In this document: in pieces, positions 2,533-25,860 of the stretch
How positions within the stretch are numbered: the stretch's first letter is position 1
Layout of the letters: every line of letters starts with the position of its first letter
Assembly: GCA_958296025.1 (NCBI GenBank)
Contig: OY282430.1
Span: 1,116,001 to 1,180,000 of the forward strand
Length of the DNA stretch: 64,000 nt
DNA from: an uncultured Pseudomonadales bacterium
GTDB taxonomy: Bacteria > Pseudomonadota > Gammaproteobacteria > Pseudomonadales > Azotimanducaceae
Direction of reading: 5' to 3'
Program-made: the position numbers and the translations under genes
The notes under the pieces: generated by a model
Seen by the model: the letters and a program-made list of their open reading frames with translations, nothing else
What the model was told of the DNA's origin: nothing
Databases searched by the model: none

Positions 2533-2952
2533 ATGCTCCTTTGGGGGCGCTTCGGATCTGCATCGAACGGGTTGAACCCAGTGAAGGACGGGATGGTCTT
2601 GATGGTTTTTGCAGCAGCGCAGACGGCTTGGGTTGATGCGTCGGCGGCGCAGTCGCCGCCTTCCGGCTGCTTGGTCTGCCCCTTGGCGGGTCCCGCCGCG
2701 GCAGGCCCGCAGCCGGGGTTGGCTGCGGTGGCCTTGCTCTGCTTCGGGGCACCCTTAGCCTTGCTGCTGTTGGGCGCCGGTCTGACCGCCGCCTTCGCCC
2801 CAGAACAGCCTGGGCTGGCCTTATTGGGCCTCGTCTTTCTCCCCGGCTTGGGCTTGGCGGGGGGCTTGGGCGCCCGGCGGCGCATTGAATCCTGGCTGGC
2901 GCCGGAAATGGGGGCCAGCTCCAACATGGCTCAACAAGGAATCAGCAAGTGA
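2533..2952 (+). CDS. rseC: RseC/MucC-like membrane protein, reduced
   Basis: Called from position between rseB and degQ plus a matching topology. After a short N-terminal region with one CxxC (GCLVC), two hydrophobic segments follow (AAVALLCFGAPLALLLLGAG and ALLGLVFLPGLGLAGGLG), ending in a short basic tail. Canonical RseC has an N-terminal Cys cluster and two membrane helices and modulates sigma-E and the SoxR-reducing system. Here most of the Cys cluster is missing. ATG 2533 gives 139 aa; GTG 2581 gives 123 aa and starts closer to the conserved part. The stop overlaps the degQ start, implying coupling. Family assignment is moderate. Confidence 0.6.
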   Translation: MLLWGRFGSASNGLNPVKDGMVLMVFAAAQTAWVDASAAQSPPSGCLVCPLAGPAAAGPQPGLAAVALLCFGAPLALLLLGAGLTAAFAPEQPGLALLGLVFLPGLGLAGGLGARRRIESWLAPEMGASSNMAQQGISK

Positions 2953-4316: not shown

Positions 4317-4323
4317 GGCGCTG
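4310..4323 (+). promoter_or_regulatory. ribosome-binding site and CTG start of lepA
   Basis: GGAG at 4310-4313 sits inside the last sense codons of degQ, followed after 7 bases by CTG at 4321-4323. In the lepA frame an in-frame TGA lies at 4300-4302, and there is no ATG, GTG or TTG between it and 4420. The next ATG (4420) would delete the GTP-binding P-loop. CTG is therefore the best-supported initiation codon. Confidence 0.7.
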
Positions 4324-9393: not shown

Positions 9394-11381
9394 TGGCAAA
9401 GGGATCCAAGCGCGACCCATCCGGCGGGAAGGCGGACGCCAGGGTTGCCGAGTCCTGGGTTCGGGATTTGACGGAGCGCCATGGACGGCTTGACGGCCAG
9501 GAGGTGCGGGCCGCCGTGCGGCGGCTGTCGGACAGCTTTCCGCCGGCCTATCTCAGCACGGGCGTCGAACTGGCCACCTTGGTCGCCAGCCTGGAGCTGG
9601 ACACCACCTCCGTGGTGGCGGCACTGTTCTGTCGTCCTGCCCGGCACGGCGGCTTAGGAAACAGGAAACTTGCCCCCCTTATCGGCGCGGATGCGGCGCG
9701 GCTGGCGGCGACGGTCAACCACCTAGCGGACAGCAGCATTCTGGACCTCAGCAACTCCCGCCTGCTGGCCAGTGAAGCCGAGGATCAAACCGCCAACATC
9801 CGCCGCATGCTGGTGGCGGTCATCAACGACGGGCGGGTGGCGGCCCTGAAGTTGGCGGAACGGGTGGTGGCCTTGCGCTGGGCCAAGGCCAGCGCCGAGC
9901 AGCGCAAGGCGCGCATCGCCGCCGAAGCCCTGAAGGTGTTTGTCCCCCTAGCGGACCGGCTGGGCATCTGGCGGTTGAAGTGGGAACTGGAGGATTTGGC
10001 GTTCCGCTATCTGGAGCCGGACGCCTACCAGCGCATCGCCAAGCAGCTGGCCGGACGCCGCACCGAGCGGGAGGCGCGGGTGCATCGCGTGGTCGGCGCC
10101 CTGCGCAGCACCTTCGCGGCACAGGGCTTAGCGGCCGACATTCACGGGCGGGCTAAGCACATCTACAGCATTTGGCAGAAGATGCGGGCCAAGCACATTC
10201 CCTTGGACGAGGTTTACGACCTGCAGGCGGTGCGGGTCATCGTTACCGATGTGGGTGACTGCTACGTTGCGCTTGGCTTGGTTCACTCCCTGTGGCGCCA
10301 TGTGCCGCAGCAGTTCGACGACTACATTGCCTCCCCGAAGGAGAACGGCTACCGCTCCATCCACACGGCGGTCGTCACTGGCGACGGCACCCCCTGTGAA
10401 GTGCAGATCCGAACTAGGGAAATGCACCGCGAGGCGGAGCTGGGCGTTTGCGCCCATTGGTCCTACAAGGGGCTGTCTGAGGAACATGACGACTATGCCA
10501 AGAAGGTGGCTTGGCTGCGCCAAGCCATTGCGGTGCATGACCGGGAGGGGGGCGACCTAGCCGCCGAATTGATGGATGGAACCCGGGCGCGCCGGGTGTT
10601 CGTCCACACCCCCAAGGGCCATGTGCTGGACTTGGTGGCCGGCGCCACGCCAGTGGACTTCGCCTATCGGGTGCATACGGAGGTGGGGCACCGCTGCATC
10701 GGTGCCTTGGTCGATGGCCGGCCGGTGCCCCTCAACGCGCCCTTGCAGTCCGGGCAGCGGGTGCAGGTGCTGACCGGCCCGGCTGCCGCGCCGCAGCCGG
10801 CTTGGCTGGACGTGGATTTGGGCTACGTCAACAGCGCCCGGGCTAGGAGCAAGATACGCGCAAGACTTTGGCGGCAGGGGCCTAGGCGAATCGCCGCCGG
10901 CCGGGCGCTGCTGTTCAGCATGATCGACAGCCTCGCTCTGCCGCCGCCGGGCGCCGCCGCGCTGGCGGCCTTGGCTGCGGACTGCGGCTGCACAACTGCC
11001 GATGCGCTGCTGCAAGCCATCGGCGTCGGCCAGCTGGGCGGTTTGGAGGTCCTCGGCCGCTACCTGTGCGGCCAGGCGCCCAGCCCCCAGGTTGACCTGC
11101 TCGACGGTTCGCCTTCCCCGCCGAGTACACGCCAGCGCTTGCGCATAGTGGCCAAGGACCGGGACGGCCTGCTGCGCGACCTCACCTTGGTGCTAAGCCG
11201 CTTCGGATTGTCCATGGCGGCCGCCTCCGCTCATGTTGATGCGCAAAGCGGCGCGGCCTGGCTGGAAATGGAGCTGAAGGTCGAGGGGTTGAAAGAGTTG
11301 GCGCGTGTGATTCACCATATGCAGCAAGTGCCCGACGTGCGCCAAGCGCGCCGCGTGGCAGCTTGGGAGCGTCCATCGTGA
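9390..11381 (+). CDS. relA: (p)ppGpp synthetase RelA
   Basis: Ribosome-associated alarmone synthetase of the stringent response. The pseudo-hydrolase domain (residues ~30-180) lacks the HD metal motif ([16 protein letters not shown]). The synthetase domain carries [19 protein letters not shown]; the acidic E/QxDD signature distinguishes monofunctional RelA from SpoT (RxKD). TGS ([15 protein letters not shown]) and C-terminal ACT ([19 protein letters not shown]) domains follow. At 663 aa it is shorter than E. coli RelA (744). GTG 9390 and ATG 9393 are adjacent in-frame starts. Its stop overlaps the adk start. Confidence 0.93.
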
Positions 11382-12031
11382 AGGCAGTGCTGCTTGGCCC
11401 TCCAGGCGCCGGCAAAGGCACCCAAGCCCAGTTCATCTGCGCCAGCTTCGGCATCCCGCAGATTTCCACCGGCGACATGCTGCGGGCGGCGGTGAAGGCC
11501 GGCACGCCCTTGGGTCGCCAGGCGCAGCAGGTCATGGACAGTGGCGCCTTGGTTTCCGACGACATCATCATCGCCTTGGTGCGGGAGCGCATCGCCGCCC
11601 CAGACTGCCAAGCCGGCTTCCTGTTCGACGGCTTTCCCCGCACCATCCCCCAGGCCGAGGCCTTGGAGGCCGCCGCGACGGAGATCGACGCGGTGGTCGA
11701 GATTGGCGTCCCCGACGCCGAGATCGTCAAACGCATGAGCGGACGGCGTGTGCATCCCGGCAGTGGGCGGGTTTACCATGTGCTTTACAATGCGCCAACT
11801 GTCGCCGGTTTGGATGACCTGACCGGTGAGCCGCTGATTCAACGCGCCGATGACCAAGAGGCCACCGTCCGTGAACGCTTGGCGGTCTATCGGCGTCAGA
11901 CCGAGCCGCTGATCGCCTTTTATCGAGAGCAGGCACAGCGCGGCGGATTGCACTATTTGGCCGTTGACGGGTCACAGGATGTTGAGGCGGTGCAGCAGGA
12001 TCTAGCCGCCGGCTTGGCGCAGCTGCGCTGA
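11378..12031 (+). CDS. adk: adenylate kinase
   Basis: Converts AMP and ATP to two ADP. The start GTG 11378 overlaps the relA stop and gives [20 protein letters not shown] with the P-loop. AMP-binding ([11 protein letters not shown]), the second signature [14 protein letters not shown] and a LID region with [17 protein letters not shown] follow. The LID lacks zinc-binding Cys residues, as usual for proteobacteria. The length of 217 aa is typical. An upstream TTG (11363) is in frame but would disturb the conserved N-terminus. Coupling to relA is an unusual neighbourhood. Confidence 0.95.
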
Positions 12032-12044
12032 GCGTCGCAGGCGC

Positions 12045-13253
12045 CTAGATCAGTCCCCAGAATGGCAAGACCTCCACCGGCCTGCCCGACCGCAGATCTC
12101 CCGCCGCCTTGGGGATGCGAATCAGGCAGTTGGCTGTGGCGAAGGCGCTCATGCGGTTGGAGCTCTGATCGCCCGTGGTACAGACCTGCGCCACGCCCGC
12201 CACATGGCTGGCGACGCCGCGTTGATACTCCTCCCGGCCCGGTTTGTGGCGAATGGGCGACCGCAGTTCGCAGATCAGGCTGAACGGCGGTTGCGAGTCC
12301 ATGCCGCACAGGGCTTCAATGGCCGGCTTGGCCAACAGGAGATAGGTGACGATGCTGGAGGCCGGGTTGCCCGGCAGGCCCAGCAGCAAGGCGCCGCCCA
12401 CCCGCCCGAAGGCGACTGGCTTGCCGGGCTTGAGGTTGAGCCGCCAGAAGTCCAATTTGCCCAAGCTCTCCACCGCGCTCTTCACCAAGTCCGCCTCGCC
12501 CACAGAGACGCCGCCGCTGGTGAGGATCAGCCGGCATTGGTCCCCCACCCGTCCGAGGGCCTTGGCAATGGTGGTGGCATCGTCGGGCAAAACGCCGAGG
12601 TTGGCCGCATCGACCGGCAGTTGCTGCAGCAAGGCGGCGATGGCGTAGCGATTGGAGTCATAGATGTTGCCGTAGCGCAACGGCTTGCCCGGCTGTTGAA
12701 GCTCGTCGCCGCTGGAGAACAGAGCGATGCGCGGGCGGGCGTAAACCTTGGCTTCGGGGACGCCGGCGGCGGCCAAGGTGCCGATGTCGAAGGCGTTGAG
12801 CCGCCGGCCGCGCTTGGCCAGCACATCGCCGCGGCTCAGATCCTGGGCTGGCGGGCGCACATTGTCCGCCCGATTGGGTGTGCTGCCGATGCGCAGCGTT
12901 CCACCGGCTAGGCTGCAATCCTCCTGAACCACCACGGTGTCGCAGTCGGCCGGCAAGGCGGCGCCGGTGGTGATGCGCACCGCCTCGCCGTGCGCCACCG
13001 TGCCGGCGTGCGGGTGCCCGGCCAAGCTGGCGCCGACGATGCGCAGTTCACGCACACCGGGGCGCCAGCGAATGGCGTAGCCATCCATGGCGGAGGCGGG
13101 AAAGGGCGGCAGGTCGGTGCGGGCGATGCAGTCTTCGGCGGCCACCCGGCCCAGGGCCTTATGCACGTTTACCCGTTCGGTTTCGCTGGGCGCCGGCACT
13201 GCGGCGAGAATGCGCTGCAGCGCCTCATCAAGGTCCAAGGGCGGTGCTAACAT
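12045..13253 (-). CDS. moeA: molybdopterin molybdenumtransferase MoeA
   Basis: Inserts molybdate into adenylated molybdopterin to complete molybdenum cofactor. Residues ~1-45 show VNVHKALGRVAAEDCIARTD, and the substrate loop is FPASAMDGYAIRW. The catalytic MoaB/MogA-like domain has LILTSGGVSVGEADLVKSAV and LLLGLPGNPASSIVTYLLL. The length of 402 aa is normal (E. coli 411). It converges on adk with a 13-base gap, and its start codon lies only 6 bases from the divergent tsaB start. No other molybdenum cofactor gene is in the window. Confidence 0.93.
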   Translation of the reverse strand: MLAPPLDLDEALQRILAAVPAPSETERVNVHKALGRVAAEDCIARTDLPPFPASAMDGYAIRWRPGVRELRIVGASLAGHPHAGTVAHGEAVRITTGAALPADCDTVVVQEDCSLAGGTLRIGSTPNRADNVRPPAQDLSRGDVLAKRGRRLNAFDIGTLAAAGVPEAKVYARPRIALFSSGDELQQPGKPLRYGNIYDSNRYAIAALLQQLPVDAANLGVLPDDATTIAKALGRVGDQCRLILTSGGVSVGEADLVKSAVESLGKLDFWRLNLKPGKPVAFGRVGGALLLGLPGNPASSIVTYLLLAKPAIEALCGMDSQPPFSLICELRSPIRHKPGREEYQRGVASHVAGVAQVCTTGDQSSNRMSAFATANCLIRIPKAAGDLRSGRPVEVLPFWGLI

Positions 13254-13259
13254 GGCGGC

Positions 13260-14111
13260 ATGACCTGCATCCTAGGCATAGAAACCGGGCGGGGAGCCTG
13301 TTCCGCGGCCTTGTATGTGAATGGAACCCTCCACGAGGATACCCACTTTCCCAACCGCGGGGAATCCGCACCAAACAGCGGGAATTCACCCAGCGGCCCT
13401 CCTCCTAAGCGCTTGGATCAAAGTGCCGCCGGGGTTTCCGGTCGGCGGGAAACGGCAGCAAGGCGTCAGGACTCACCCGGTGAACGCCCGCGCGTTGGTC
13501 TGCACGGACAGCTTGCCGCAAACAGGGCGCCGGCGCACAACGAACAAATCTTGGGCCTGGTCGATGCGGTGTTCGCCGCCGCTGGGCGGTCTTCGCAACA
13601 GCTGGATGCGGCCGCTTTCGGCTGTGGCCCGGGCTCATTTACCGGTATTCGCTTGGCCGCCTCCGTCGCCCAAGCGGTGGCCTTGGCCGCCGGCGCTCAG
13701 GTCGTGCCCATCTCCTCCACTCTGGCCTTGGCCGTTGGCGCTATCGAGAAACTGCACCTCGATCAAGGGGTGGTGGTGGGCATTCGCTCCCGCCGGGAGG
13801 CTTTTTACTTGGCCAGCTTCGCCACTGGCGACGGGCGACCACGGCCCCGACAACCCGATCAGTTGCTGGACGCCTGCCCGGATTGGGCGGCGTTTTCCGA
13901 CGGTTGGCCCTTGGTCGGCGACCGGCCGCCCTGGTTGCCCGCCGCCGCCGCACACTTTGAACTGACGGTGGGTGCGGGGCTGATCGCTCGGTTGGGGGCA
14001 GCGGCGTTCGCCGCCGGCAGGGGGCTGGTGCCGGAACTCGGCTTGCCCACCTACGTCAACGGAGACACGCCTTGGCGCCCTGCTGTCTGTAAGCGGCATG
14101 ACGAGGGTTGA
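13260..14111 (+). CDS. tsaB: tRNA t6A synthesis protein TsaB with internal insertion
   Basis: Partner of TsaD/TsaE in making N6-threonylcarbamoyladenosine at tRNA position 37. The ASKHA-fold start CILGIETGRGACSAALYVNG and the core FGCGPGSFTGIRLAASVAQA are clear. Between residue ~33 and the conserved HNEQILGLVDAVF lies about 58 extra residues (rich in S, G, P, R, A), absent from normal TsaB proteins, which run straight through. The frame stays open, so the product (283 aa versus about 230) may fold with an exposed loop. The start is ATG, 6 bases from the divergent moeA start, with no clear ribosome-binding site. Confidence 0.88.
   Translation: MTCILGIETGRGACSAALYVNGTLHEDTHFPNRGESAPNSGNSPSGPPPKRLDQSAAGVSGRRETAARRQDSPGERPRVGLHGQLAANRAPAHNEQILGLVDAVFAAAGRSSQQLDAAAFGCGPGSFTGIRLAASVAQAVALAAGAQVVPISSTLALAVGAIEKLHLDQGVVVGIRSRREAFYLASFATGDGRPRPRQPDQLLDACPDWAAFSDGWPLVGDRPPWLPAAAAHFELTVGAGLIARLGAAAFAAGRGLVPELGLPTYVNGDTPWRPAVCKRHDEG
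13359..13532. repeat. in-frame insertion element candidate inside tsaB
   Basis: This 174-bp stretch encodes the non-homologous segment of TsaB. Its ends carry an imperfect direct repeat: CCGCACCAAACAG at 13366-13378 and CCGCAAACAGG at 13516-13526. A hairpin is possible at 13462-13488: GGCGT pairs with ACGCC, and TCACC with GGTGA. In-frame palindromic-element insertions are known in other bacteria (for example Rickettsia RPE). Identity to any named element is not claimed. Confidence 0.5.
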
Positions 14112-14832
14112 CGGAAGCGGTCGTTCAGCGGACGGTAAGGGAGCTGCCGGAGCAGAGCGCCCCGTGCTTTACCATCGCGTCCCGGCGGAACGTTATGAGG
14201 AGGTCTTCGTTCTGCGCTATGCGGACCGCCCGCCGCAGCTTCCCGGTTACCACCTCTATTATGACGAGTGCGGCATGGCGTTGATGGGCGCCGAAGCGCC
14301 GCGAGGCTTCCGTTTGCAATTGCAGCGCGTGACGGCGCGGGCCCGCCAGTCCTTGCTGCTGGCCCGGGCCTGCGCCGCTGGGCGGCGGCCGGCGGTGGCC
14401 GACCTGATGGCCGGATGGGGTACGGACGGCCTGTGCCTGGCCCTGAAGGGCTGCACTGTCGCCTTGGTGGAGCGTTCGCCCTTGATATGGGCCCTTTTGG
14501 ATGAATTTGTGCGGCGCCACGGGCTGTCGGCGTCGGTTCTGCTCGGCGACGCCGGCGCTTGGTGCCGAACCCATCCCAAGGCAGTTGAGGTGGCCTATCT
14601 GGATCCGATGTACCCGCCCCGGCGCAAGGCCGCCTTGCCGCAGCGCTCCATGCAGCACCTGCGCACCCTCGCTTGGGCGGATCGCTCGGAGTTGGCGCAA
14701 CGCATTGAGCAGGCTAGGGCGGCGGCGCGGCAGCGGGTGGTGGTCAAACGCCGGGCGGCTGCGCCGGCGGTTGCCAAACCCAGTTGGCAAGTGCATGGCC
14801 GGCAGGTGCGTTTCGATGTTTATCGGGTCTAG
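14098..14832 (+). CDS. rsmJ: 16S rRNA (guanine1516-N2)-methyltransferase RsmJ
   Basis: SAM-dependent methyltransferase of small-subunit rRNA. The SAM-binding loop is DLMAGWGTDGLCLALKG, followed by VALVERSPLIWALLDEF. The family-specific catalytic motif VAYLDPMYPPRRKAALPQ corresponds to the DPMFPxxxKSAL motif of E. coli RsmJ. The length of 244 aa matches the family (E. coli 250). The start ATG 14098 overlaps the tsaB 3' end by 14 bases, so the two are probably co-translated. It is the last gene before the LRR island. Confidence 0.9.
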   Translation: MTRVDGSGRSADGKGAAGAERPVLYHRVPAERYEEVFVLRYADRPPQLPGYHLYYDECGMALMGAEAPRGFRLQLQRVTARARQSLLLARACAAGRRPAVADLMAGWGTDGLCLALKGCTVALVERSPLIWALLDEFVRRHGLSASVLLGDAGAWCRTHPKAVEVAYLDPMYPPRRKAALPQRSMQHLRTLAWADRSELAQRIEQARAAARQRVVVKRRAAAPAVAKPSWQVHGRQVRFDVYRV

Positions 14833-15076
14833 ACCTAAAAAACGCTCTGAAACCCGCTTGGCGTCTAGGTTCCCTGCTTTCGGCGGACGCCTCGCTAGCC
14901 CATTCACTGACACCAAAAGGCGGCATCAAGCCGCCTGAACCCCCACCATATCTCCATTGTTAAACCATAGGCGGCGAATATTTAACTCAAGCCGATTAGG
15001 GCCACTAAGCCCAAGACAGCCAGCACCGCCAAGGTCCGGGAAGGGTTGGGGCGCTTGGCGGCAAGGAAAGCATGGG
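14833..15076. other. intergenic between rsmJ and the first LRR gene
   Basis: About 240 bases between convergent genes. It holds the minus-strand terminator at 14914-14936. On the minus strand, in a frame other than that of the LRR gene, it also encodes a hydrophobic stretch (SRTLAVLAVLGLVALIGLS) ending at a stop at 14982-14984. That stretch lacks a start codon of its own. Nothing else is recognised. Confidence 0.5.
14914..14936 (-). terminator. rho-independent terminator of the minus-strand LRR gene
   Basis: AGGCGGC (14918-14924), a 5-base loop and GCCGCCT (14930-14936) form a perfect 7-bp stem. Read on the minus strand the stem is followed by TTTTGG. It lies about 140 bases after the LRR stop at 15077. 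Confidence 0.7.
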
Positions 15077-17701
15077 CTAGTCCGCTGTCGAAACGCCCTC
15101 AATCGAAAGGTTTGTTACATGGCCTGTGGCCGCCCTTAGCAGGCTTGCGCCCACAACGGATTGCCCGGCGGTTATGAACAATCGCCACTTGCCGCCGCCG
15201 TCGCCAAGCGTTCCCGTCAAGCCCTGTGCGCCATCTTCAAGGTCAAGCGCCGACAGGGTGCGGGATTCCCCGGCGGCCAGCGTCAAGGTCACCGGGCCGG
15301 CGGCGTTGCCCCTGTCGTCAACGCCTTCAATGCTCACGCTCTCGGCGCCGTCTCCGGCGTTCACAAGGCGCAGACTGCTAACGCTTTGGGCATTGCTGCC
15401 GGGGTTGAAGGTGTGCGCCACAAGCCGCCCCTGGCCATCCCTTGGCAGGGTTTCGTTCATTGCCGTTAGGAAGCCGTCGCCGGTGCGGACAAAGGCAATT
15501 ATCCTAACATTCAAGGCGCTTTCAATGTCCAAACGCCAATCGCCTTGAACCGGCAGCCCTATGCCCGTTGCAATGCCCTTGTTCGCGTTTCCGTTCTCAA
15601 GGTCGCCGGAATTGAAGTGAAGGGCTTGATTCGCGCCCAACTGAATTTCAATCGGTTCGGCGGCGTTTCCGCCGTCGTCAAAGGCGAGTACGCGAACGCT
15701 GCCGGATTCGTCGAATTCGTTGATGATGCGAACGAAACCCTGCCGCATTGAATCAGAGGCGGATATCATCAAAGGCACGGCGGCGGCAGTTGCCGAAACG
15801 CCCTCAATCGAAAGGTTGGTCACATGGCCCGTGGCCGCCTCAAGCAGGCTTGCGCCCACAACGGATTGCCCTGCGGTTATGAACAACCGCCATTTGCCCG
15901 CGCCGTCGCCAAGGGTTCCGGCCAAGCCTTGTGCGTTTCCTGTCTCAAGGTCAAGCGCCGACAGGGTGCGGGCTTCCCCGGCGGCCAGCGTCAAGGTCAC
16001 CGGGCCGGCGGTGTTCCCTTGGTCGTCAACGCCTTGAATGCTCACGCCCTCGGCGCCGTCTCCGGCGTTCGCAAGGCGCAGACTGCTAACGCTTTGGTCA
16101 TTGCTTCCCGGGTTGAAAGTGTGCGCCGCAAGTCGCCCTTGGCCGTCCCTTGGCAGCGTTTCATTCATTGCCGTTAGGAACCCGTCGCCGGTGCGGACAA
16201 AGGCAATTATCCTAACATTCAAGGCGCTTTCAATGTCCAAACGCCAGTCGCCTTGAACCGGCAGCCCTATGCCCGTTGCAATGCCCTTGTTCGCGTTTCC
16301 GTTCTCAAGGTCGCCGGAATTGAAGTGAAGGGCTTGATTCGCGCCCAACTGAATTTCAATCGGTTCGGCGGCGGTTCCGCCGTCGTCAAAGGCGAGTACG
16401 CGAACGCTGCCGGATTCGTCGGATTCGTTGATGATGCGAACGAAACCCTGCCGCATTGAATCAGAGGCGGATATCATCAAAGGCACGGCGGCCGCAAGGC
16501 GCTTTGTTTGTCCCGGCGCTGCGGTTTGCCCGCCCAAATAAAACTCAACTCCACTGGGAAGCCCTGCGAACAATGGGTCATCCTCGGTCAACCCCACAAG
16601 GTGGTTGTCGTTCAAGTAAAGCGTTTGCAGGCTGGTCAGGCCGTCGAACACGCCTTCCGGCAACTCCGCCAACTGGTTTTTATCCAACCCAAGCCTTTGC
16701 AGGCTGGTCAGGCCGGCGAACAACCCCTCCGGCAACTCCGCCAACTGGTTGCGGTGCAACCAAAGCGTTTGCAGGCTGGTCAGGCCGTCGAACACGCCTT
16801 CCGGCAACTCCGCCAACTGGTTCACTTGCAACAGAAGCGATTGCAGGCTGGTCAGGCCGGCGAACAACCCCTCCGGCAACTCCGCCAACTGGTTGTGGGT
16901 CAAGTAAAGCGTTTGCAGGCTGGTCAGGCCGGCGAACACGCCTTCCGGCAACTCCGCCAACTGGTTCACTTGCAACCCAAGATATTGCAGGCTGGTCAGT
17001 CCGGCGAACAAGCCCTCCGGCAACGTCGCCAACTGGTTGAAGCCCAGCCAAAGCGTTTGCAGGCTGGTCAGGCCGGCGAACAAGCCCTCCGGCAACTCCG
17101 CCAACTGGTTGTTGTTCAAGTAAAGCTCTTGCAGGCTGGTCAGGCCGGTGAACAACCCCTCGGGCAACGCCGCCAACTGGTTCCCTTCCAAGAAAAGCCC
17201 CTGCAGGCTGGTCAGTCCGTCGAACAACCCCTCCGGCAACTCCGCCAACTGGTTGCTGCCCAAGGTAAGATATTGCAGGCTGGTCAGTCCGTCGAACAAC
17301 CCCTCCGGCAACTCCGCCAACTGGTTCGCTTCCAACCCAAGCGATTGCAGGCTGGTCAGTCCGTCGAACAAGCCCTCCGGCAACTCCGCCAACTGGTTGC
17401 CGGACAACCCAAGCAATTGCAGGCTGGTCAGGCCGGCGAAGTCACCGTTCGCCAAAGCGGTCAGACCTTGGTTGTACAAGACAAGGTTGCCCGATAAGCC
17501 CGACAATGAAGCGTTCGGCACTGTGGCGCAATTGGAATGCGAAACCGCAGTTAGGATTGCATCGCGCACGGCGGCCGTCCGCCCGCAAATGTCTGTGGTC
17601 TGCGCTTGGCCCAAAGCAGGCAGCATGGCTGCGGCAAGCATGATGGTCAGCAGCCTTCCCATGCAACCGCGGACGCGATTGCAAGCAGCAAATTCACTCA
17701 T
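15077..17701 (-). CDS. secreted leucine-rich-repeat protein A
   Basis: Exported protein of unknown target. ATG 17701 follows GGGGGA at good spacing; ATG 17662 (MGRLLTIMLAAAMLPALGQA) is an alternative placing the signal peptide at the start. The signal peptide is followed by a Cys-containing cap (DICGRTAAVRDAILTAV...NC). Eleven 24-residue repeats of type NQLAELPEGLFDGLTSLQ then follow, with a closing NHLVGLTEDDPLFAGLP unit. Only the residues around LxLxx vary between repeats. Two ~210-aa C-terminal units follow (VPLMISASDSMRQGFVRI...), almost identical to each other and to those of the divergent neighbour. CAA, GAA and TTG codons look more frequent than in flanking housekeeping genes, suggesting transfer. 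Protein binding or adhesion is an inference from LRR structure. Confidence 0.85.
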   Translation of the reverse strand: MSEFAACNRVRGCMGRLLTIMLAAAMLPALGQAQTTDICGRTAAVRDAILTAVSHSNCATVPNASLSGLSGNLVLYNQGLTALANGDFAGLTSLQLLGLSGNQLAELPEGLFDGLTSLQSLGLEANQLAELPEGLFDGLTSLQYLTLGSNQLAELPEGLFDGLTSLQGLFLEGNQLAALPEGLFTGLTSLQELYLNNNQLAELPEGLFAGLTSLQTLWLGFNQLATLPEGLFAGLTSLQYLGLQVNQLAELPEGVFAGLTSLQTLYLTHNQLAELPEGLFAGLTSLQSLLLQVNQLAELPEGVFDGLTSLQTLWLHRNQLAELPEGLFAGLTSLQRLGLDKNQLAELPEGVFDGLTSLQTLYLNDNHLVGLTEDDPLFAGLPSGVEFYLGGQTAAPGQTKRLAAAVPLMISASDSMRQGFVRIINESDESGSVRVLAFDDGGTAAEPIEIQLGANQALHFNSGDLENGNANKGIATGIGLPVQGDWRLDIESALNVRIIAFVRTGDGFLTAMNETLPRDGQGRLAAHTFNPGSNDQSVSSLRLANAGDGAEGVSIQGVDDQGNTAGPVTLTLAAGEARTLSALDLETGNAQGLAGTLGDGAGKWRLFITAGQSVVGASLLEAATGHVTNLSIEGVSATAAAVPLMISASDSMRQGFVRIINEFDESGSVRVLAFDDGGNAAEPIEIQLGANQALHFNSGDLENGNANKGIATGIGLPVQGDWRLDIESALNVRIIAFVRTGDGFLTAMNETLPRDGQGRLVAHTFNPGSNAQSVSSLRLVNAGDGAESVSIEGVDDRGNAAGPVTLTLAAGESRTLSALDLEDGAQGLTGTLGDGGGKWRLFITAGQSVVGASLLRAATGHVTNLSIEGVSTAD
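15080..16488 (-). repeat. tandem C-terminal units of LRR protein A
   Basis: Two near-identical ~700-bp units, about 15080-15780 and 15785-16488, encode the same ~210-aa domain. Both begin VPLMISASDSMRQGF and end with VTNLSIEGVS. Long exact nucleotide matches are visible by eye, for example around GGCGGATATCATCAAAGGCA at the unit starts. The same units occur twice in inverted orientation at about 19760-21160. Confidence 0.85.
16560..17440 (-). repeat. 72-bp LRR-coding repeat array in protein A
   Basis: A tandem array of 72-bp units encodes NQLAELPEGLFDGLTSLQ-type LRRs. Most of each unit is nearly identical. A block of roughly 15-20 bases per unit, coding the residues around LxLxx of the predicted beta strand, differs from copy to copy. 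Confidence 0.85.
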
Positions 17702-17727
17702 TAGATCCCCCTGCTGCGATTCGCTTT

Positions 17728-17744
17728 CCCGGCATGAAGCCGGG
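17728..17744 (-). promoter_or_regulatory. 5' UTR hairpin of LRR gene A
   Basis: CCCGGC and GCCGGG with a 5-base loop form a perfect 6-bp stem. It lies 27-43 bases upstream of ATG 17701 and about 12 bases upstream of its GGGGGA ribosome-binding site. It could affect translation or message stability. Confidence 0.5.
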
Positions 17745-17794
17745 CCGTTGAAGCAATGCACAAGTGATTGTGATTCCTGCCTATTCACCTTGTC

Positions 17795-17810
17795 GGGGTA
17801 GCTACTCCCC
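17795..17810. promoter_or_regulatory. 16-bp near-palindrome upstream of LRR gene A
   Basis: GGGGTAGCTACTCCCC is symmetric around the palindrome GTAGCTAC. It lies between the predicted promoter and the coding start, so it could be an operator or a transcript hairpin. No regulator is identified. Confidence 0.35.
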
Positions 17811-17878
17811 GGCAATTGGTCGGCTGTTGTATTCAGCAAGCAACCCGACACGGGCACTTGCACACTGCTTCAATGGCG

Positions 17879-17908
17879 ACTGTAACCAACTCGCCCGGCA
17901 GTAGTCAA
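17879..17908 (-). promoter_or_regulatory. predicted sigma-70 promoter of LRR gene A
   Basis: Read on the minus strand: TTGACT (-35, 17903-17908), 18-base spacer, TACAGT (-10, 17879-17884). Matches to consensus are 5/6 and 4/6. It would give a 5' UTR of about 170 bases. Confidence 0.5.
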
Positions 17909-18140
17909 CCCCCAATCATCCTGCCCACTAGCGGCCACAAAGCGCCCAGATTCGCCCTTGGGCGCGTCTAGGCGCATTCAGGGCCATAGGGTTGCCTTCG
18001 GTTCACTGCGCCCTAGCCGCCCAAGGCGCTTGCGGCCCTTCGCCCATTTTTCCTTCATGGTTTCTCCCGTCTATTTCCAGTGTTTGGCAAGCCCTAGACA
18101 ATTAAGGTTACGCACCTTTAGCGCCAAGGGAAGGGACACC

Positions 18141-21100
18141 GTGAAAAAGGCAGCCATCATCATGCTTGCCGCGGCCATGCTGCCAGCTTTGAGTTATGCG
18201 CAAACCGTCAACATTTGCGACCGAACGCCGCAGGTGCGCGGTGCCATCATGCGATGGGTTGGCGCGGAAGACTGCGCCGCCGTGGATTCCGAAAGTCTGG
18301 CCGGCGTAGCGCACCTGGACTTGGCGGGGCAAGGCTTGACAAGTTTGCGGGCTGACGACTTCGCCGGCCTGACCAGCCTGCAATCGCTTGATTTAGGGCT
18401 TGGTTCACAGATTGGTCTGCATGACTTCTTATTCAACTACTTGACGACCTTGCCGGAAGGCATTTTCGACGGCCTGACCAGCCTGGAATTTCTTGACTTG
18501 GACAACAACCAGTTGACGGCGTTGCCGGAAGGCGTTTTCGACGGCCTGACCAGCCTGCAAGACCTTCGATTGAGCGCCAACGACTTGACGACCTTGCCGG
18601 ATGGCATTTTCAACGGCCTGACCAGCCTGCAAGACCTTAGCTTTTCATTCAACTACTTGACGACCTTGCCGGAAGGCGCGTTTGACGGCCTGACCAGCCT
18701 GCGATCTCTTTTCTTTTCATACAACGAGTTTACGACCTTGCCGGAGGGCGTGTTCGACGGCCTGACCAGCCTGCAATCCCTTGGCTTTAATAGCAACGGC
18801 TTGACGACCTTGCCGGAAGGCGTGTTCGACGGCCTGACCAGCCTGCAAAGGCTTGACTTTTCACACAACGACTTGACGACCTTGCCGGAGGGCGCGTTTG
18901 ACGGCCTGACCAGCCTGCAAAGGCTTGACTTTTCACACAACGACTTGACGACCTTGCCGGAGGGCGCGTTTGACGGCCTGACCAGCCTGCAAAGGCTTGA
19001 CTTTTCACACAACGACTTGACGACCTTGCCGGAGGGCGCGTTCGACGGCCTGACCAGCCTGCAAGAGCTCTACTTGCAGAGAAACCAGTTGGCGGCGTTG
19101 CCGGAAGGCGTTTTCGACGGCCTGACCAGCCTGCAATCGCTTGACTTGCGCGAAAACCACCTTGTGGGATTGACCGAAAATGACCCGTTGTTTGCCGGGC
19201 TTCCTAGCGAAGTTGAATTGCAGTTGGGCGGGCAAGCAGCTATCCTATCCGTCTGCGATAGGACGCCGCAAGTGCGCGACGCCATCATGCAAGAGGCTGA
19301 GGCCGACGATTGCGCCGCCGTGAGTTCCCACGACGTGTTTCGCCTTTCTTTGTCCGGCAGCCAGTTGACGACCTTACGCACCGGCGACTTCGACGGCCTG
19401 ACCAGCCTGCAAAGTCTTTACTTGCACGAAAACCAGTTGACGACCTTGCCGGAAGGCGTGTTCGACGGCCTGACCAGCCTGCAAGAGATTGTCTTGCGCG
19501 AAAACCAGTTGACGACCTTGCCGGAAGGCGTGTTCGACGGCCTGACCAGCCTGGAAATACTTTCTTTGAGCGGCAACCGGTTGACGACCTTGCCGGAAGG
19601 CATTTTCGACGGCCTGACCAGCCTGCAATGGCTTTACTTGGCCGGCAACCACCTTGTGGGATTGACCGAAAATGACCCGTTGTTCGACGGCCTGACCAGC
19701 CTGCAAGAGCTTGATTTGGGCGGGCAAACCGAAGCGCCGGAAACAACGCGCCTAGCCGCCGCCGTGCCTTTGATGATATCCGCCTCTGATTCAATGCGGC
19801 AGGGTTTCGTTCGCGTCATCAACGAATCCGACGAATCCGGCGGCGTTCGCATACTCGCCTTTGACGACGGCGGAAACGCCGCTGAACCGATTGAAGTTCA
19901 GTTGGGCGCGAATCAAGCCATTCACTTCAACGCCGGCGACCTTGAGAACGGAAACGCGAACAAGGGCATTGCAACGGGCATAGGGCCGCCGGTTCAAGGC
20001 GACTGGCGTTTGGACGTTGAAAGCGCCTTGAATGTTAGGATAATTGCCTTTGTCCGCACCGGCGACGGGTTCCTAACGGCAATGAACGAAAACCTGCCAA
20101 GGGATGGCCAGGGGCGGCTTGTGGCGCACACCTTCAACCCAGGAAGCAATGCCCAAAGCGTTAGCAGTCTGCGCCTTGTGAACGCCGGAGACGGCGCCGA
20201 GAGCGTGGGCATTGAAGGCGTTGACGACAGGGGCAACGCCGCCGGCCCGGTGACCTTGACGCTGGCCGCCGGCGAAGCCCGCACCCTGTCGGCGCTTGAC
20301 CTTGAAGATGGAACGCAAGGCTTGGCCGGAACCCTTGGCGACGGCGCGGGCAAATGGCGATTGTTCATAACCGCCGGGCAATCCGTTGTGGGCGCAAGCC
20401 TGCTTGAGGCGGCCACGGGCCATGTGACCAACCTTTCGATTGAGGGCGTTTCGGCAACTGCCGCCGCCGTGCCTTTGATGATATCCGCCTCTGATTCAAT
20501 GCGGCAGGGTTTCGTTCGCATCATCAACGAATCCAACCAATCCGGCAGCGTTCGCATTCTCGCGTTTGACGACGGCGGAACCGTCGCCAACCCTGTTGAA
20601 ATTCAGTTGGGCGCGAACCAAGCCCTTCACTTTAATTCCAACGACCTTGAGAACGGCAACGCGGCCAAGGGCATCAACGCAGGCATAGGAAGCCCGGTTC
20701 AAGGCGATTGGCGTTTGGACACTGAAACCGCTTTGGACGTTCGGGTGCTTGCCTTTGTCCGCACCGGCGACGGCTTCCTAACGGCAATGAACGAAACCCT
20801 GCCAAGGGATGGCCAGGGGCGGCTTGTGGCGCACACCTTCAACCCCGGCAGCAATGACCAAAGCGTTAGCAGCCTGCGCCTTGTGAACGCCGGAGACAGC
20901 GCCGAGAGCGTGGGCATTGAAGGCGTTGACGACAGGGGCAACGCCGCCGGCCCGGTGACCTTGACGCTGGCCGCCGGCGAAGCCCGCACCCTGTCGGCGC
21001 TTGACCTTGAAGATGGAACGCAAGGCTTGACCGGAACCCTTGGCGACGGCGCGGGCAAATGGCGATTGTTCATAACCGCCGGGCAATCCGTTGTGGGCGC

Positions 21101-21167
21101 AAGCCTGCTAAGGGCGGCCACAGGCCATGTGACCAACCTTTCGACGGCGGGCGTTACAACGGACTAG
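18141..21167 (+). CDS. secreted leucine-rich-repeat protein B with two LRR blocks
   Basis: Paralogue of the divergent LRR protein; 1008 aa from GTG 18141, which follows AAGGGAAGGGA. The frame is open upstream, but the signal peptide KKAAIIMLAAAMLPALSYA starts here. Cap ICDRTPQVRGAIMRW...DCAAV is followed by about ten LTTLPEGVFDGLTSLQ repeats and the closing NHLVGLTENDPLFAGLP. A second cap (VCDRTPQVRDAIM...DDCAAV, near 19246-19330) begins a shorter second LRR block. Two ~210-aa C-terminal units (19760-21160) match those of protein A. Three consecutive 72-bp repeats at 18849-19064 are essentially identical. Function unknown; extracellular recognition is inferred from the fold. Confidence 0.85.
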   Translation: MKKAAIIMLAAAMLPALSYAQTVNICDRTPQVRGAIMRWVGAEDCAAVDSESLAGVAHLDLAGQGLTSLRADDFAGLTSLQSLDLGLGSQIGLHDFLFNYLTTLPEGIFDGLTSLEFLDLDNNQLTALPEGVFDGLTSLQDLRLSANDLTTLPDGIFNGLTSLQDLSFSFNYLTTLPEGAFDGLTSLRSLFFSYNEFTTLPEGVFDGLTSLQSLGFNSNGLTTLPEGVFDGLTSLQRLDFSHNDLTTLPEGAFDGLTSLQRLDFSHNDLTTLPEGAFDGLTSLQRLDFSHNDLTTLPEGAFDGLTSLQELYLQRNQLAALPEGVFDGLTSLQSLDLRENHLVGLTENDPLFAGLPSEVELQLGGQAAILSVCDRTPQVRDAIMQEAEADDCAAVSSHDVFRLSLSGSQLTTLRTGDFDGLTSLQSLYLHENQLTTLPEGVFDGLTSLQEIVLRENQLTTLPEGVFDGLTSLEILSLSGNRLTTLPEGIFDGLTSLQWLYLAGNHLVGLTENDPLFDGLTSLQELDLGGQTEAPETTRLAAAVPLMISASDSMRQGFVRVINESDESGGVRILAFDDGGNAAEPIEVQLGANQAIHFNAGDLENGNANKGIATGIGPPVQGDWRLDVESALNVRIIAFVRTGDGFLTAMNENLPRDGQGRLVAHTFNPGSNAQSVSSLRLVNAGDGAESVGIEGVDDRGNAAGPVTLTLAAGEARTLSALDLEDGTQGLAGTLGDGAGKWRLFITAGQSVVGASLLEAATGHVTNLSIEGVSATAAAVPLMISASDSMRQGFVRIINESNQSGSVRILAFDDGGTVANPVEIQLGANQALHFNSNDLENGNAAKGINAGIGSPVQGDWRLDTETALDVRVLAFVRTGDGFLTAMNETLPRDGQGRLVAHTFNPGSNDQSVSSLRLVNAGDSAESVGIEGVDDRGNAAGPVTLTLAAGEARTLSALDLEDGTQGLTGTLGDGAGKWRLFITAGQSVVGASLLRAATGHVTNLSTAGVTTD
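18849..19064 (+). repeat. three near-identical 72-bp LRR repeats
   Basis: Copies start at 18849, 18921 and 18993 with AGGCTTGACTTTTCACACAA. The first two are identical and the third differs only near its end (TTCGACGG for TTTGACGG). Each encodes one LRR with the face residues RLDFSHN. This indicates very recent tandem duplication. Confidence 0.9.
19760..21160 (+). repeat. tandem C-terminal units of LRR protein B, inverted relative to those of A
   Basis: Two ~700-bp units (about 19760-20455 and 20466-21160) each encode VPLMISASDSMRQGF...GHVTNLS. They are nearly identical to each other and to the units at 15080-16488 on the opposite strand. The island therefore carries long inverted repeats around the N-terminal halves of both genes. 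Confidence 0.85.
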
Positions 21168-21283
21168 CCCTTGCAGGCCTAGCCTTGCCTTGTAGCCAAG
21201 GGCTGCTAGGGCGCGTTGTGGGCTTGCCTTGCGCCCTTCGCCATGATTCACCAGTTCGCCTTCGCCAATTCCGAAGGGGAACC

Positions 21284-21885
21284 ATGAGAAGCCTTTTGAC
21301 CATCATGCTGGCCGCGGCCATGCTGCCGGCTTTGAGTTATGCGCAGACCGTCAACATTTGCGACAGAACGCCGCAGGTGCGGGACCGCATCATGCAAAGG
21401 GTTGGCGCGGATGATTGCGCCGCCGTGGATGCCCACGGATGGCCGACGTGAGCAATTTGGATTTCAGATACAGCCCCATTAAGACCTTGCAGGTCGGCGA
21501 CTTCGACGGCCTGACCGGATTGCAAAGGCTTTCCTTGCGGGGCACCCGGTTGACGACATTGCCGGAAGGCGTGTTCGACAGCCTGACCTACTACATGGCA
21601 TATCTGCGGTTGAACGACAACCACTTGACCGCCTTGCCGGAAGGCGTGTTCGACAGCCTGACCAACTTGGAATATCTCAACTTGACCGGCAACTACCTTG
21701 TGGGGTTGACCCGGAACGACCCATTGTTCGCCGGGCTTCCCAATGGAGTTGACTTGCAATTGGGCGGGCAAACCGAAGTCAATGCCGGCTTGAAGCCGTG
21801 GATGTTGTATGAAGGGTTTAGACTTGGGCAAGAGAAACGCGACAACGCCGGAAGTGACCAAGGCCCTAGGCCGCCTTCGCATTAG
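21284..21885 (+). pseudogene. frameshifted, truncated third LRR gene
   Basis: ATG 21284 follows AAGGGGAACC and encodes the same signal peptide and cap as its neighbours (SLLTIMLAAAMLPALSYAQ; ICDRTPQVRDRIMQRVGADD). That frame stops at 21449-21451 soon after DDCAAVDAHG. The LRR part continues in another frame (from about 21440: ADVSNLDFRYSPIKTLQVGD, then LPEGVFDSLT repeats and YLVGLTRNDPLFAGLP) to 21885. The two parts fit with a single-base frameshift around 21430-21450. There are only a few repeats and no C-terminal unit. It could be a sequencing error, but the truncation favours decay. Confidence 0.75.
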
Positions 21886-21912: not shown

Positions 21913-23856
21913 TCAGCCGCGCAGGACCGCATAGCGGAACTCGTCGTCCATCAGACGGTTGGCGTTGCGCAGGGTTTCATGGACAAGGCTCCCGCAGCTG
22001 AGCCGCCCGTCCGCCCCCTCGGTCACCGCCCGGTCGCTGATGAGCTTGCCGACAAATTCATCGAATAGGGTTTGATCGAAAAACTCCGGCGCGTTGATGC
22101 CGTGCAGTCGGGCCATCTTGTGGGCGATGCGACGGCTTTGCGTCCTGAGTTCGGCGCAGCTGGGGGCCGGTCGCCGGGTCAGCAGGCTCAGCACGATGTA
22201 TTGGCGCTCCAAGGATTGGCGGATGAGGCCGGCCAGCAGATGCAGGCGGCAACGGGCTGGGCTATCGGCCGGCGGAGGCTTTAGCCGCCGGTCTTCGCCT
22301 TGGCGGATCAAGCCGCACTCGAGCAGATGGCCGGTCCAGCGTTTGATGTCGCCAAGCGAGAACGTCGCATGCAACTCCCAGGCGGTGTAGGGATAAACCG
22401 CCGCCGCCATGCGCTCCAGGCTTGCGGCGCTGACGGGCCGCTGACGGGCATCGATGAGAAAGGCGATCAGGGCCGGCAAGGCCAGCACATGGGCGTTGTT
22501 GTTGCGATACCAAGTCAGCAGCACAGCGGCGTCCGGTTCTGCGGCCAGGACTTCGCCGAACGCCTCCCTTTCCCGCGCCAGAAAGCCAAGGCGCACTGCG
22601 TAGTCGATGATCTCGGCACCACCCTTCTCGGTGATCCGGTATTGATGATGGGCGGCGTCACGACGCAGCAGGTCCAGGCAGCAATCGATCTGCTCGGCCA
22701 GCCGGTTCGCCTCCATGGCCGGACGCGGTGCGCATAGCAGGGTCATGGCTGCCATGTTGATCGGGTTGACCGTGGCCGCGGCGTTCACCCGTTCGAGAAT
22801 CTCCCGCCCCAGGGCTTGGGCTTCGTCTCCGTCGCCGGTCCGTTGCGCCTGCCAGGCATCCAGATGCAGGGGCTGGCCGAAGTTCACATCGACCCGGCCA
22901 AAGCGTTGCCGGATGAGCCGGAAGCCGCCCAGAATTTGCCGCAGGGATTCGCGGCGCTTGTGCGCCCCGCGCATTTCATCGACGTAGGTTGACGCCTCCA
23001 TCAGCTTCTCAAAGCCTAGGTAAACCGGCACAAAGGCGATGGGTCGGGCTAGGCCCCGGCGCGCATGGGCCAAGCTCATCTTCAACAGGCCGAAGCGGGC
23101 CGGCAGCAGGCGCCCGCTGCGGCTGCGTCCGCCTTCGGGAAAGAACTCGACGCAGTGCCCGCGCCGGTACACCTCGTAGAGGTACTCGGAGAGCACGGCG
23201 GCGTACAGCGCATCTCCGCGGAAGCTGCGGCGTATGAAGAAGGCCCCGCAACGCCGCAGCAGGCCGCTGACCAGAGGCAGGTTCAGGTTGTCGCCGGCGG
23301 CGATGTGGGGAATCATCAGACCGCGGTTGAACAGCAGCAGGGAGATGAGCAGATAGTCCATGTGGCTGCGGTGAGAGGGGACGTAAACCAGGGTGTGCGT
23401 CTCGGCAAGGCCGATGACCCGCTCCAAGCCGTGTACGCGCAGGCGTTCATAGATGCGGTTGAAGAAGGTCGTCAGCAGCCGGGCTAGGATGAGGACAGTG
23501 GGGTAGGACATGTCGGCGGCGATTTCCAGCGTCACCTTCCGGGCTTGGCCTTGCAAGCGTACACGCGCCGCCGCTTCCTCCCGTTGCGGTCCGCTTCCTT
23601 GCCGGGGAGACCTTTCCGCCCCGTGACTAGGCGCCCGATCCCTACGCCTGATCAGCCGGCCGACGCTGTGCAAGCCAAATGCCCCCGGCCAAGCCTTGGC
23701 CTTGGCGACTGCGCCGGCGGCCCGCCGTTCGACCAGCGCCTCCTCAATGGCGGCCTGCACGGCGGCGCTGTTCACCACGCGATCCACCAAGGCGCCCGTG
23801 CGCTTCGCTGCCGGGGTGGTCGGCGCGGGCTGTGCTACATTCGCCCACCATCGCAT
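21913..23856 (-). CDS. plsB: glycerol-3-phosphate acyltransferase PlsB, short form
   Basis: First acylation step of phospholipid synthesis, at the inner membrane. Acyltransferase box I is VPSHRSHMDYLLISLLLF (His162-x4-Asp167). Later boxes are GAFFIRRSFRGDALY, VEFFPEGGRSRSGRLL and IAFVPVYLGFEKLMEASTY. C-terminal HGINAPEFFDQTLFDEFV is typical of PlsB. At 647 aa it lacks about 160 residues compared with E. coli PlsB (807), all from the N-terminus; homology starts around the ALVDRVVNSAAVQAAIEEAL region. The annotated ATG 23856 lies 36 bases from the divergent TPR gene, and a later start is possible. Confidence 0.9.
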   Translation of the reverse strand: MRWWANVAQPAPTTPAAKRTGALVDRVVNSAAVQAAIEEALVERRAAGAVAKAKAWPGAFGLHSVGRLIRRRDRAPSHGAERSPRQGSGPQREEAAARVRLQGQARKVTLEIAADMSYPTVLILARLLTTFFNRIYERLRVHGLERVIGLAETHTLVYVPSHRSHMDYLLISLLLFNRGLMIPHIAAGDNLNLPLVSGLLRRCGAFFIRRSFRGDALYAAVLSEYLYEVYRRGHCVEFFPEGGRSRSGRLLPARFGLLKMSLAHARRGLARPIAFVPVYLGFEKLMEASTYVDEMRGAHKRRESLRQILGGFRLIRQRFGRVDVNFGQPLHLDAWQAQRTGDGDEAQALGREILERVNAAATVNPINMAAMTLLCAPRPAMEANRLAEQIDCCLDLLRRDAAHHQYRITEKGGAEIIDYAVRLGFLAREREAFGEVLAAEPDAAVLLTWYRNNNAHVLALPALIAFLIDARQRPVSAASLERMAAAVYPYTAWELHATFSLGDIKRWTGHLLECGLIRQGEDRRLKPPPADSPARCRLHLLAGLIRQSLERQYIVLSLLTRRPAPSCAELRTQSRRIAHKMARLHGINAPEFFDQTLFDEFVGKLISDRAVTEGADGRLSCGSLVHETLRNANRLMDDEFRYAVLRG

Positions 23857-23892: not shown

Positions 23893-25860
23893 ATGGCCGA
23901 GCTAGGGGGCGTCCGCAAGGCTTTTGCCGACGCCGAGGCGCTGCTGCGCGGGCGGCAGCCGCATTTGGCCATCCGGCAACTTCGGGCAATCCTCCGCGAG
24001 CATCCTAGGGAGGTGAATTCGCTGCGGTTGCTCGGCTCGATTCGGCTGGCGCAAGGCGATGCGCTCGCCGCCATCGAGCATTTGCGCCTAGCCGTCGCAC
24101 AGGCGCCGGACTTCGCCCAAGCGAACCTGGATCTAGCCCGGGCCTATCGTCGCGACGGGCAAGTTGACCAAGCGGTGACCTGCTTGCAGGCGTTCTGCGC
24201 CAAGGCCTCCGGCCACAGCGAGGCTTGGCGGCTACTCGGCGACGCCTTGTTGGAGCGGGGCGACATGCTGGCCGGCCAAGACGCCCTGCGCCGGGCTGCC
24301 GCCGCCGACCCGCACCGGCGGGAAGTGGCGGCGGCACTCAGGCACCTGCGCCGAGGCCACCGCCAAGCCGCGGAAGAGACCTTCCGCGGCATCCTCAAAC
24401 GGCGTCCCGACCATGTGGCGGCCTTGGTCGGCTTGGCCAACATCGCCCTGGATGCCGGTGCCGTGGAGGATGCCGAGCGGCTGCTGCGCTACGCTCTGAA
24501 AATCGCGCCCAACGAGGACACGGTGTGGCGGGGGTTGGCGCGGGTGCATTCGGAGCGGGCCGACTACAACGGCGCGGAAGCGGCCGCCGAACGCGCCTTG
24601 GCCTTGGCGCCGGAAAACCCCGATTGCTGGACCATGCTCGGCACCGTGCAAGCTTGGGGCCTGCGCCCGGAAAGGGCCAAGGAATCCTTCGAGAGGGCCC
24701 TCTCCATCAAGCCGAACAGCCCCCGGGTGGCTCTTTCCCTCGGTCATGTGCTGAAGACCCTGGGCGAACGGCGGGCCTGCGGGCGGGCCTATCGTCGCGC
24801 CGTCGAGTTGGACCCGGATCTAGGTGAAGCTTGGTGGAGCCTCGCCGACCTGAAGACCTATGCGTTCAGCGACGATGAAATCCGCCGCATGGAGGCTGGC
24901 GTTGCGCGCGGCGACGGCGGTCTGGCGCAGCAGGCCGCGTTTCGCTTCGCCTTGGGCAAGGCGTTGGAGGATCGGGGAAACTGGGACGATGCCTTCCGCC
25001 ACTACGCCGCTGGCAACGGCGCCAAGCATGCGGCGGAGCCCTTCGACAGCGCCGCCCTGACGGAGCGCCGCCGCCGCATGGAGGCCCTATGCACAGCGGA
25101 GTTCCTAGCCGCCCAAACACCGCCGGGGCCGGCCGCCGTCAAGCCGATCTTCGTGGTCGGCCTGCCGCGTTCCGGCTCCACCCTGATCGAGCAGATTCTC
25201 GCCAGCCATTCCGCCGTGCAGGGCACCATGGAACTGCCGCAGGTGCAGACCTATACCCGGGAATTGGAGGCGAAGGGCGGCTATCCCGAGGCGCTGGCGG
25301 CGATGTCGCCGGCCGACCTGCAGGCCCTGGGCGAGCGCTACCTGCGCGAAACCAAGCCCTACCGGGGGGATGCGCATTGGTTCATCGACAAGATGCCGAA
25401 CAACTTCCTGCATATCGGCTTGATCCACGCCATGCTGCCGGGGGCCATCTTCATCGACATTCGCCGCCATCCCCTGGATTGCTGCTGCTCGCTGTTCAAG
25501 CAGAACTTCGCTAGGGGACAGACCTTCAGCTACGATCTGAAGGCGCTGGGCACCTATTACCGGGACTACTTGGAGATGATGCGCCATTGGCGGGCGGTGC
25601 TGCCCGGCCGGGTGCTTTGCGTGCCATACGAATCTGTGGTGCAGGACACCGAAGCCCAAGTACGGGGTTTGCTGAGCCACTGCGGGCTGCCCTTTGAGGA
25701 GGCCTGCCTGCGCTTCCACGAAACCAAGCGGGCGGTGCGCACCGCCAGCGCCGAACAGGTGCGCCAACCCATCAACCGCCGAGGCATCGACAGCTGGCGC
25801 CGCTTCGAGAAGCATTTGGCGCCCTTGCAGCAGGCGCTTGGCTGGGCGCTGAACAGCTGA
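23893..25860 (+). CDS. TPR-repeat protein fused to a sulfotransferase domain
   Basis: 655 aa. Residues ~5-390 are tetratricopeptide repeats (for example LRLLGSIRLAQGDALAAIEH and ALVGLANIALDAGAVEDAER). Residues ~415-650 are a PAPS-dependent sulfotransferase. It has a 5'-phosphosulfate loop FVVGLPRSGSTLIEQILASH, a 3'-phosphate motif FIDIRRHPLDCCCSLFKQNF and a late SWRRFEKHLAPL. Family members transfer sulfate from PAPS to proteins, glycans or small molecules, with the TPR part probably selecting the partner. The substrate is unknown. No signal peptide, so cytoplasmic. It stands alone, divergent from plsB and convergent with gspD. Confidence 0.85.
   Translation: MAELGGVRKAFADAEALLRGRQPHLAIRQLRAILREHPREVNSLRLLGSIRLAQGDALAAIEHLRLAVAQAPDFAQANLDLARAYRRDGQVDQAVTCLQAFCAKASGHSEAWRLLGDALLERGDMLAGQDALRRAAAADPHRREVAAALRHLRRGHRQAAEETFRGILKRRPDHVAALVGLANIALDAGAVEDAERLLRYALKIAPNEDTVWRGLARVHSERADYNGAEAAAERALALAPENPDCWTMLGTVQAWGLRPERAKESFERALSIKPNSPRVALSLGHVLKTLGERRACGRAYRRAVELDPDLGEAWWSLADLKTYAFSDDEIRRMEAGVARGDGGLAQQAAFRFALGKALEDRGNWDDAFRHYAAGNGAKHAAEPFDSAALTERRRRMEALCTAEFLAAQTPPGPAAVKPIFVVGLPRSGSTLIEQILASHSAVQGTMELPQVQTYTRELEAKGGYPEALAAMSPADLQALGERYLRETKPYRGDAHWFIDKMPNNFLHIGLIHAMLPGAIFIDIRRHPLDCCCSLFKQNFARGQTFSYDLKALGTYYRDYLEMMRHWRAVLPGRVLCVPYESVVQDTEAQVRGLLSHCGLPFEEACLRFHETKRAVRTASAEQVRQPINRRGIDSWRRFEKHLAPLQQALGWALNS

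Follow-up and report, generated by a model that had tools for sequence, protein, structure and literature searches.

How can tandem repeat units be held nearly identical, down to their DNA, and still differ so strongly at a few fixed codons? The question is raised by a group of leucine-rich repeat (LRR) genes in an uncultured Pseudomonadales bacterium. The window analysed here is a stretch of 64,000 nucleotides, positions 1116001-1180000 of a 3.9 Mb genome assembled as one contig, and the three LRR genes lie at 15077-21885 of this window: A on the minus strand, B divergent from it on the plus strand, and a frameshifted remnant, C. The features are, in window positions:

15077..17704, minus strand: LRR protein A, ~875 aa from an ATG at 17704 (the mechanical open reading frame runs to 17863)
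16625..17416, minus strand: A array of 11 complete 72-bp LRR units, with variable codons 1, 3, 5 and 6 in each unit
15080..16500, minus strand: C-terminal half of A, a ~235-aa segment in two near-identical copies, with two ASRT-like beta-sandwich domains per copy
18141..21167, plus strand: LRR protein B, 1008 aa from a GTG at 18141 (the mechanical open reading frame runs from 17958)
18489..19136, plus strand: B LRR block 1, 9 complete units; units 7-9 of B are identical in residues
19413..19628, plus strand: B LRR block 2, 3 complete units
19749..21164, plus strand: C-terminal half of B, in long inverted repeats at DNA level with the corresponding half of A
21284..21885, plus strand: C, remnant of a third copy, in which one frame (to 21451) encodes the signal peptide and N-cap and another the LRRs

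Protein A is composed of a signal peptide, a Cys-bearing N-cap, the 11 complete LRR units with end units, and four beta-sandwich domains; B shares this architecture but has two LRR blocks, and C lacks the beta-sandwich half. Both A and B probably start inside their mechanical open reading frames. With Pfam LRR_8 scores of 299.5 (A), 317.6 (B) and 58.9 bits (C) against a cut-off of 27, these are typical LRR proteins. An AlphaFold model of the LRR half of A folds as a horseshoe (pLDDT 91.9), the best structural matches of which are ordinary LRR horseshoes: Leptospira LIC10831, LRRTM2, LGR4 and designed LRRs. Further LRR genes elsewhere in the genome include the paralogue P1 (1716180-1719926) and P2. 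The C-terminal halves of A and B supply an inverted repeat of 845 nt at 93% identity (window 15087-15931 vs 20316-21160), an arrangement that would in principle permit inversion or conversion of the intervening segment.

The original prediction held that the 24-residue unit is nearly fixed, also at the DNA level, over more than twenty copies, and that the residues of the concave strand differ in almost every copy of A. Both statements are borne out by the 23 complete units (11 in A and 12 in B). Seventeen residues (2, 4, 7-10, 12-15, 17 and 19-24) are invariant across the units of A and three (11, 16 and 18) vary only mildly; strong variation in the aligned units of A is confined to residues 1, 3, 5 and 6, with amino-acid entropies of 2.4-3.1 bits, and the four-residue combination is distinct in 11/11 units. 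B is looser: residue 8 varies too, residue 4 is Leu or Phe, and ten distinct combinations are found among 12 units. Mean DNA identity between units is 84% in A and 80% in B; whole-unit amino-acid identity is 79% and 71%, and the framework of A taken alone reaches 93%. The four variable positions correspond to the exposed x of the xLxLxxN motif. In the model of A, where unit 1 starts at residue 66, the strands coincide with unit residues 1-3 in 11/11 units (strands 66-68, 90-92 and so on), and all four variable residues map to the predicted concave strand.

We counted synonymous and replacement differences between units, setting codons 1, 3, 5 and 6 against the remaining, framework codons. Replacement diversity at the four variable codons is 0.720 in A, 0.695 in B and 0.617 in P1, and silent diversity in the framework is 0.139, 0.119 and 0.070, respectively. 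The ratio of the former to the latter is thus 5.2 in A (bootstrap 4.1-7.0), 5.8 in B (3.9-10.2) and 8.8 in P1 (5.6-20.0), all intervals excluding 1, so that the unit-to-unit comparison yields a 5-9 fold excess of replacement over silent change at concave positions, the lack of which would have spoken against the original prediction. Codons 2, 4 and 7, which lie between the variable ones, have silent diversities of only 0.088 (A), 0.092 (B) and 0.000 (P1).

For these four positions, 36 older LRR units from other genomes yield a ratio of 1.04. A comparably homogeneous array of 23-residue LRRs from another proteobacterium (G451, locus L094), with a framework replacement diversity of 0.11, gives 1.31, and its silent diversity in the codons between the variable ones is 0.52. 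Homogeneity alone therefore does not yield the pattern, and since both the older arrays and the G451 array give ratios around 1, the excess of replacement in A, B and P1 is supported. When all arrays of at least six units in the fetched loci were surveyed, high ratios were found only in this genome, with one exception; single arrays of related genomes lie at 0.88-1.62. The exception, an LRR array from a groundwater metagenome (L026), has a ratio of 3.2 and internal stop codons.

To gauge how far the variable codons have moved, we simulated codon evolution on a star tree scaled to the silent divergence of the framework. Under neutrality the variable codons of A reach 0.118 (maximum 0.263) against 0.72 observed, and the neutral expectation across A, B and P1 is 0.06-0.12 against 0.62-0.72. 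An omega of about 50 for A and B, and of 20-50 for P1, is needed to reproduce the observations; random codons give 0.74, and the variable codons of A and B are thus about as different as random ones. The C-terminal halves provide a second yardstick: silent differences there amount to 0.10-0.21 for the A-B pair and 0.19-0.27 for A-P1, and replacement differences to 0.04-0.13. This low silent divergence outside the LRRs makes the genes young by a second measure.

We thus propose, with a probability of roughly 0.6, that A and B are secreted adhesins or recognition proteins diversified by unit duplication and extreme diversifying selection. The LRR arrays would have expanded recently through duplication of units and of genes within one species; selection would then hold the framework constant while repeatedly fixing new amino acids at the four concave residues of each unit, and the binding surface offered to a variable partner would consequently differ from protein to protein. 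Candidate partners for this surface may be a host glycan or receptor, a competing bacterium or a phage. Such a pattern is indicative, as in immune receptors, of very strong selection for novelty in binding specificity. The original prediction had offered diversifying selection as one of two causes: the replacement excess at the concave codons is there, and we infer that selection rather than mutation produced it. We prefer selection because a mutator blind to bases would be expected to strike the silent positions of the 18-base segment as well, and a filter on amino acids would not. The third base of codon 1 is G in 27/32 units of A and P1 while its first two bases are mixed, and codons 2, 4 and 7 are silent-site constant: the filter is one that sees amino acids, not bases.

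Several points weigh against the selection reading: (i), an apparent omega of 20-50 greatly exceeds what is usually estimated for positive selection and may be inflated by another factor; (ii), both silent yardsticks could be understated if the paralogues convert one another; (iii), all the evidence comes from one assembled genome; and (iv), the three identical units of B, in which unit duplication is directly visible, are evidence that new units can persist undiversified.

The second of these points leads to concerted evolution, a possible but distinctly less probable explanation. Recombination between units and genes would homogenise the framework while selection keeps old concave residues, so that the variable codons would be older than framework silent sites suggest, with a moderate true omega. 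Identical codon alleles do turn up in different settings and in more than one gene (A and P1 have TCC-GGC; A, P1 and P2 have GGC-AGC), sharing of the codon 5-codon 6 pair between genes is seen 11 times where 5.5 are expected (p 0.014, without correction for the 12 tests made), and the 845-nt inverted repeats of A and B, at 93%, favour such exchange as well. However, the variable codons show almost no linkage across 49 distinct units from the four genes, most codon pairs being at linkage equilibrium and the adjacent codon 5-codon 6 pair forming the one notable excess between genes, and the non-LRR half dates similarly. Moreover, codons 2, 4 and 7 lie no more than three bases from variable codons and their silent sites are as constant as the rest, which makes conversion tracts short enough to spare these neighbours implausible. 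The module shuffling and gene conversion that the original prediction had put forward as the alternative to selection accordingly find little support, and shuffling of modules in blocks was judged improbable because most variable codon pairs are unlinked, with marginal exceptions.

It is tempting to speculate further that bacteria have here an equivalent of adaptive-type receptors, in the form of LRR arrays at the surface whose concave codons are rewritten so rapidly, by selection or by a hypothetical codon-precise mechanism, that strains or even single hosts differ in repertoire on a constant framework. We consider this unlikely. A search for strain variants in viral contigs returned only distant LRRs.

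Ordinary relaxed constraint is very unlikely. In this explanation exposed LRR positions simply drift, and purifying selection on protein and codons holds the framework; variation at exposed x positions is indeed common to all LRR families, and the older arrays compared above show it too. But neutral drift at the measured silent divergence produces 0.06-0.12 rather than 0.62-0.72, and the homogeneous array of G451 has a ratio of 1.3. As for codon preference, the Leu at residue 2 is CTT in 11/11 units of A and 21/21 of P1, yet CTT makes up 5% of the Leu codons in six neighbouring genes; a codon that is rare there and fixed here means that preference does not explain the silent constancy, and it was discarded as its source.

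Least probable of all is a dedicated mechanism (a diversity-generating retroelement, a deaminase or VLR-like cassette copying) that rewrites concave codons, since the changes are not limited to A but affect all four bases, and leave silent positions alone, even if near-random variable codons in A and B (0.72 vs 0.74) beside nearly untouched intervening ones are what it would produce. A diversity-generating retroelement was rejected on the pattern of the changes, which are not adenine-directed, and on a search for RVT_1 reverse transcriptases, which found none in this genome and was positive in three control genomes. The unit core, allowing up to three mismatches, occurs in 57 copies in the genome, all of them within A, B, P1 or P2; there is therefore no donor library in this assembly, and with no orphan units in the genome a VLR-like cassette library was set aside.

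Returning to the selection reading, where would such proteins act? The signal peptide and N-cap are followed by the LRR horseshoe and by four ASRT-like domains that probably hold the protein in a glycan layer of the cell surface or matrix. Each ~235-aa copy in the C-terminal half comprises two beta-sandwich domains of ~115 residues (model pLDDT 89.9), whose closest folds are Thermotoga TM1070 and Anabaena ASRT (1nc7 and 2ii9, Z ~10 over 87-103 residues; the next unrelated row has 6.5). The modelled domains have the ASRT topology of the beta-sandwich. Sequence support is weak: Pfam ASRT scores 17.5 bits, under its cut-off of 25, DUF5719 scores 26.4 of 26.2 bits on the C-terminal half, and no sequence relatives were found among solved structures up to E 1. 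A comparison with PHROGs gave nothing convincing. Secreted members of the ASRT/ASRAH superfamily are predicted to bind sugars (PMC2739507). The likeness to that superfamily is the fold of the C-terminal domains; A and B differ from it by four tandem domains fused to LRRs and by the sub-cut-off Pfam score. We suggest that the C-terminal half is a surface or matrix anchor. Membership in the Slr4 S-layer family was considered and dropped, Pfam matches being weak in 10/14 relatives and none exceeding the cut-off in 9 genomes. The C-terminal half recurs across many genes of the genus, often without LRRs, and protein A has 26 matches in this genome. Another locus (L081) carries three near-identical tandem genes (2614-5208, 10720-13305 and 14488-16818) that share this four-domain beta-sandwich array; behind it lies a region in which a subtilase-like GHTSGAT motif was read by eye.

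Among known systems, the closest evolutionary analogue would be the high-internal-conservation repeats of fungal NLRs, although we claim membership of A and B neither in that family nor in the VLRs. In Podospora HET-E/HNWD proteins, and in ANK and TPR relatives, diversifying selection acts on the binding surface, at four residues per WD repeat (PMC4986451). Both cases combine near-identical tandem repeats, a few residues per repeat diversified at an interface and changes in array length, and A, B and P1 display the same excess of replacement at interface positions. Fungal NLRs, however, are intracellular NOD proteins with WD, ANK or TPR repeats and without LRRs, whereas A and B are secreted bacterial LRR proteins with no Pfam match to a NOD-type nucleotide-binding domain; their whole-unit identities (79% and 71%) are below the >85% of fungal-type repeats; and the fungal case rests on allele data and concerted evolution via exchange between genes, whereas A and B are known from one genome with little evidence of exchange.

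The variable residues of lamprey and hagfish VLRs sit in the xLxLxxN strand. A VLR germline gene is filled in from LRR cassettes that flank it, and VLR repertoires vary among cells or individuals. The resemblance to lamprey VLRs originally predicted extends to the typical 24-residue LRR scaffold (the VLRA structure 2o6q is matched at E 2e-41) and to the hypervariable concave strand on a constant framework, but not to the mechanism: A and B are germline bacterial genes without a cassette library in the assembly or an RVT_1 reverse transcriptase in the genome, and have a different N-cap and a beta-sandwich C-terminal half. Leptospira LIC10831 and LIC11098 (Z 34.5 and 34.0) and the Listeria internalins (InlF, Z 31.6) share the LRR fold and a signal peptide; A and B differ from these surface proteins by the C-terminal domain and by scores under the NCBIfam curated cut-offs of the internalin, XopL/XopAC, SlrP and LIC_11051 families, the best being 158.8 of 1000 bits. 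Highly repetitive prokaryotic WD40 proteins, which have a different fold, are likewise young bacterial repeat arrays of low silent divergence (PMC5587647); the terms variable and positive selection are absent from the main text of that study.

Should the excess hold in population data, the diversifying selection on these bacterial secreted LRR receptors would rank among the strongest site-specific cases known. A lineage that is probably animal-associated would then carry, on a single scaffold, a naturally occurring library of LRR faces, in which the ways symbionts recognise variable partners or evade them could be tested, and which would parallel VLRs and fungal NLR repeats by convergence. The bacterium is marine and, judging from its relatives, probably sponge-associated.

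Close LRR relatives are rare: counting this genome, they occur in 3/391 genomes of the order at E 1e-40 and in 4/398 of the phylum at 1e-25. In two congeners (G005 and G006) rsmJ adjoins plsB with no LRR genes between them, and the island is therefore either lineage-specific or was lost in both. The plsB-like open reading frame of the window is 647 aa long, against ~870 aa in G005 and G006, and directly upstream of it lies a TPR-sulfotransferase-like open reading frame that the congeners lack at this place (window 21913-23856 and 23893-25860). Elsewhere in the genome, LRR matches were also seen in giant open frames of 3778 to 11836 codons (G000:C1:2904004, 2102705, 2361839, 2329831, 3188879 and 2345020).
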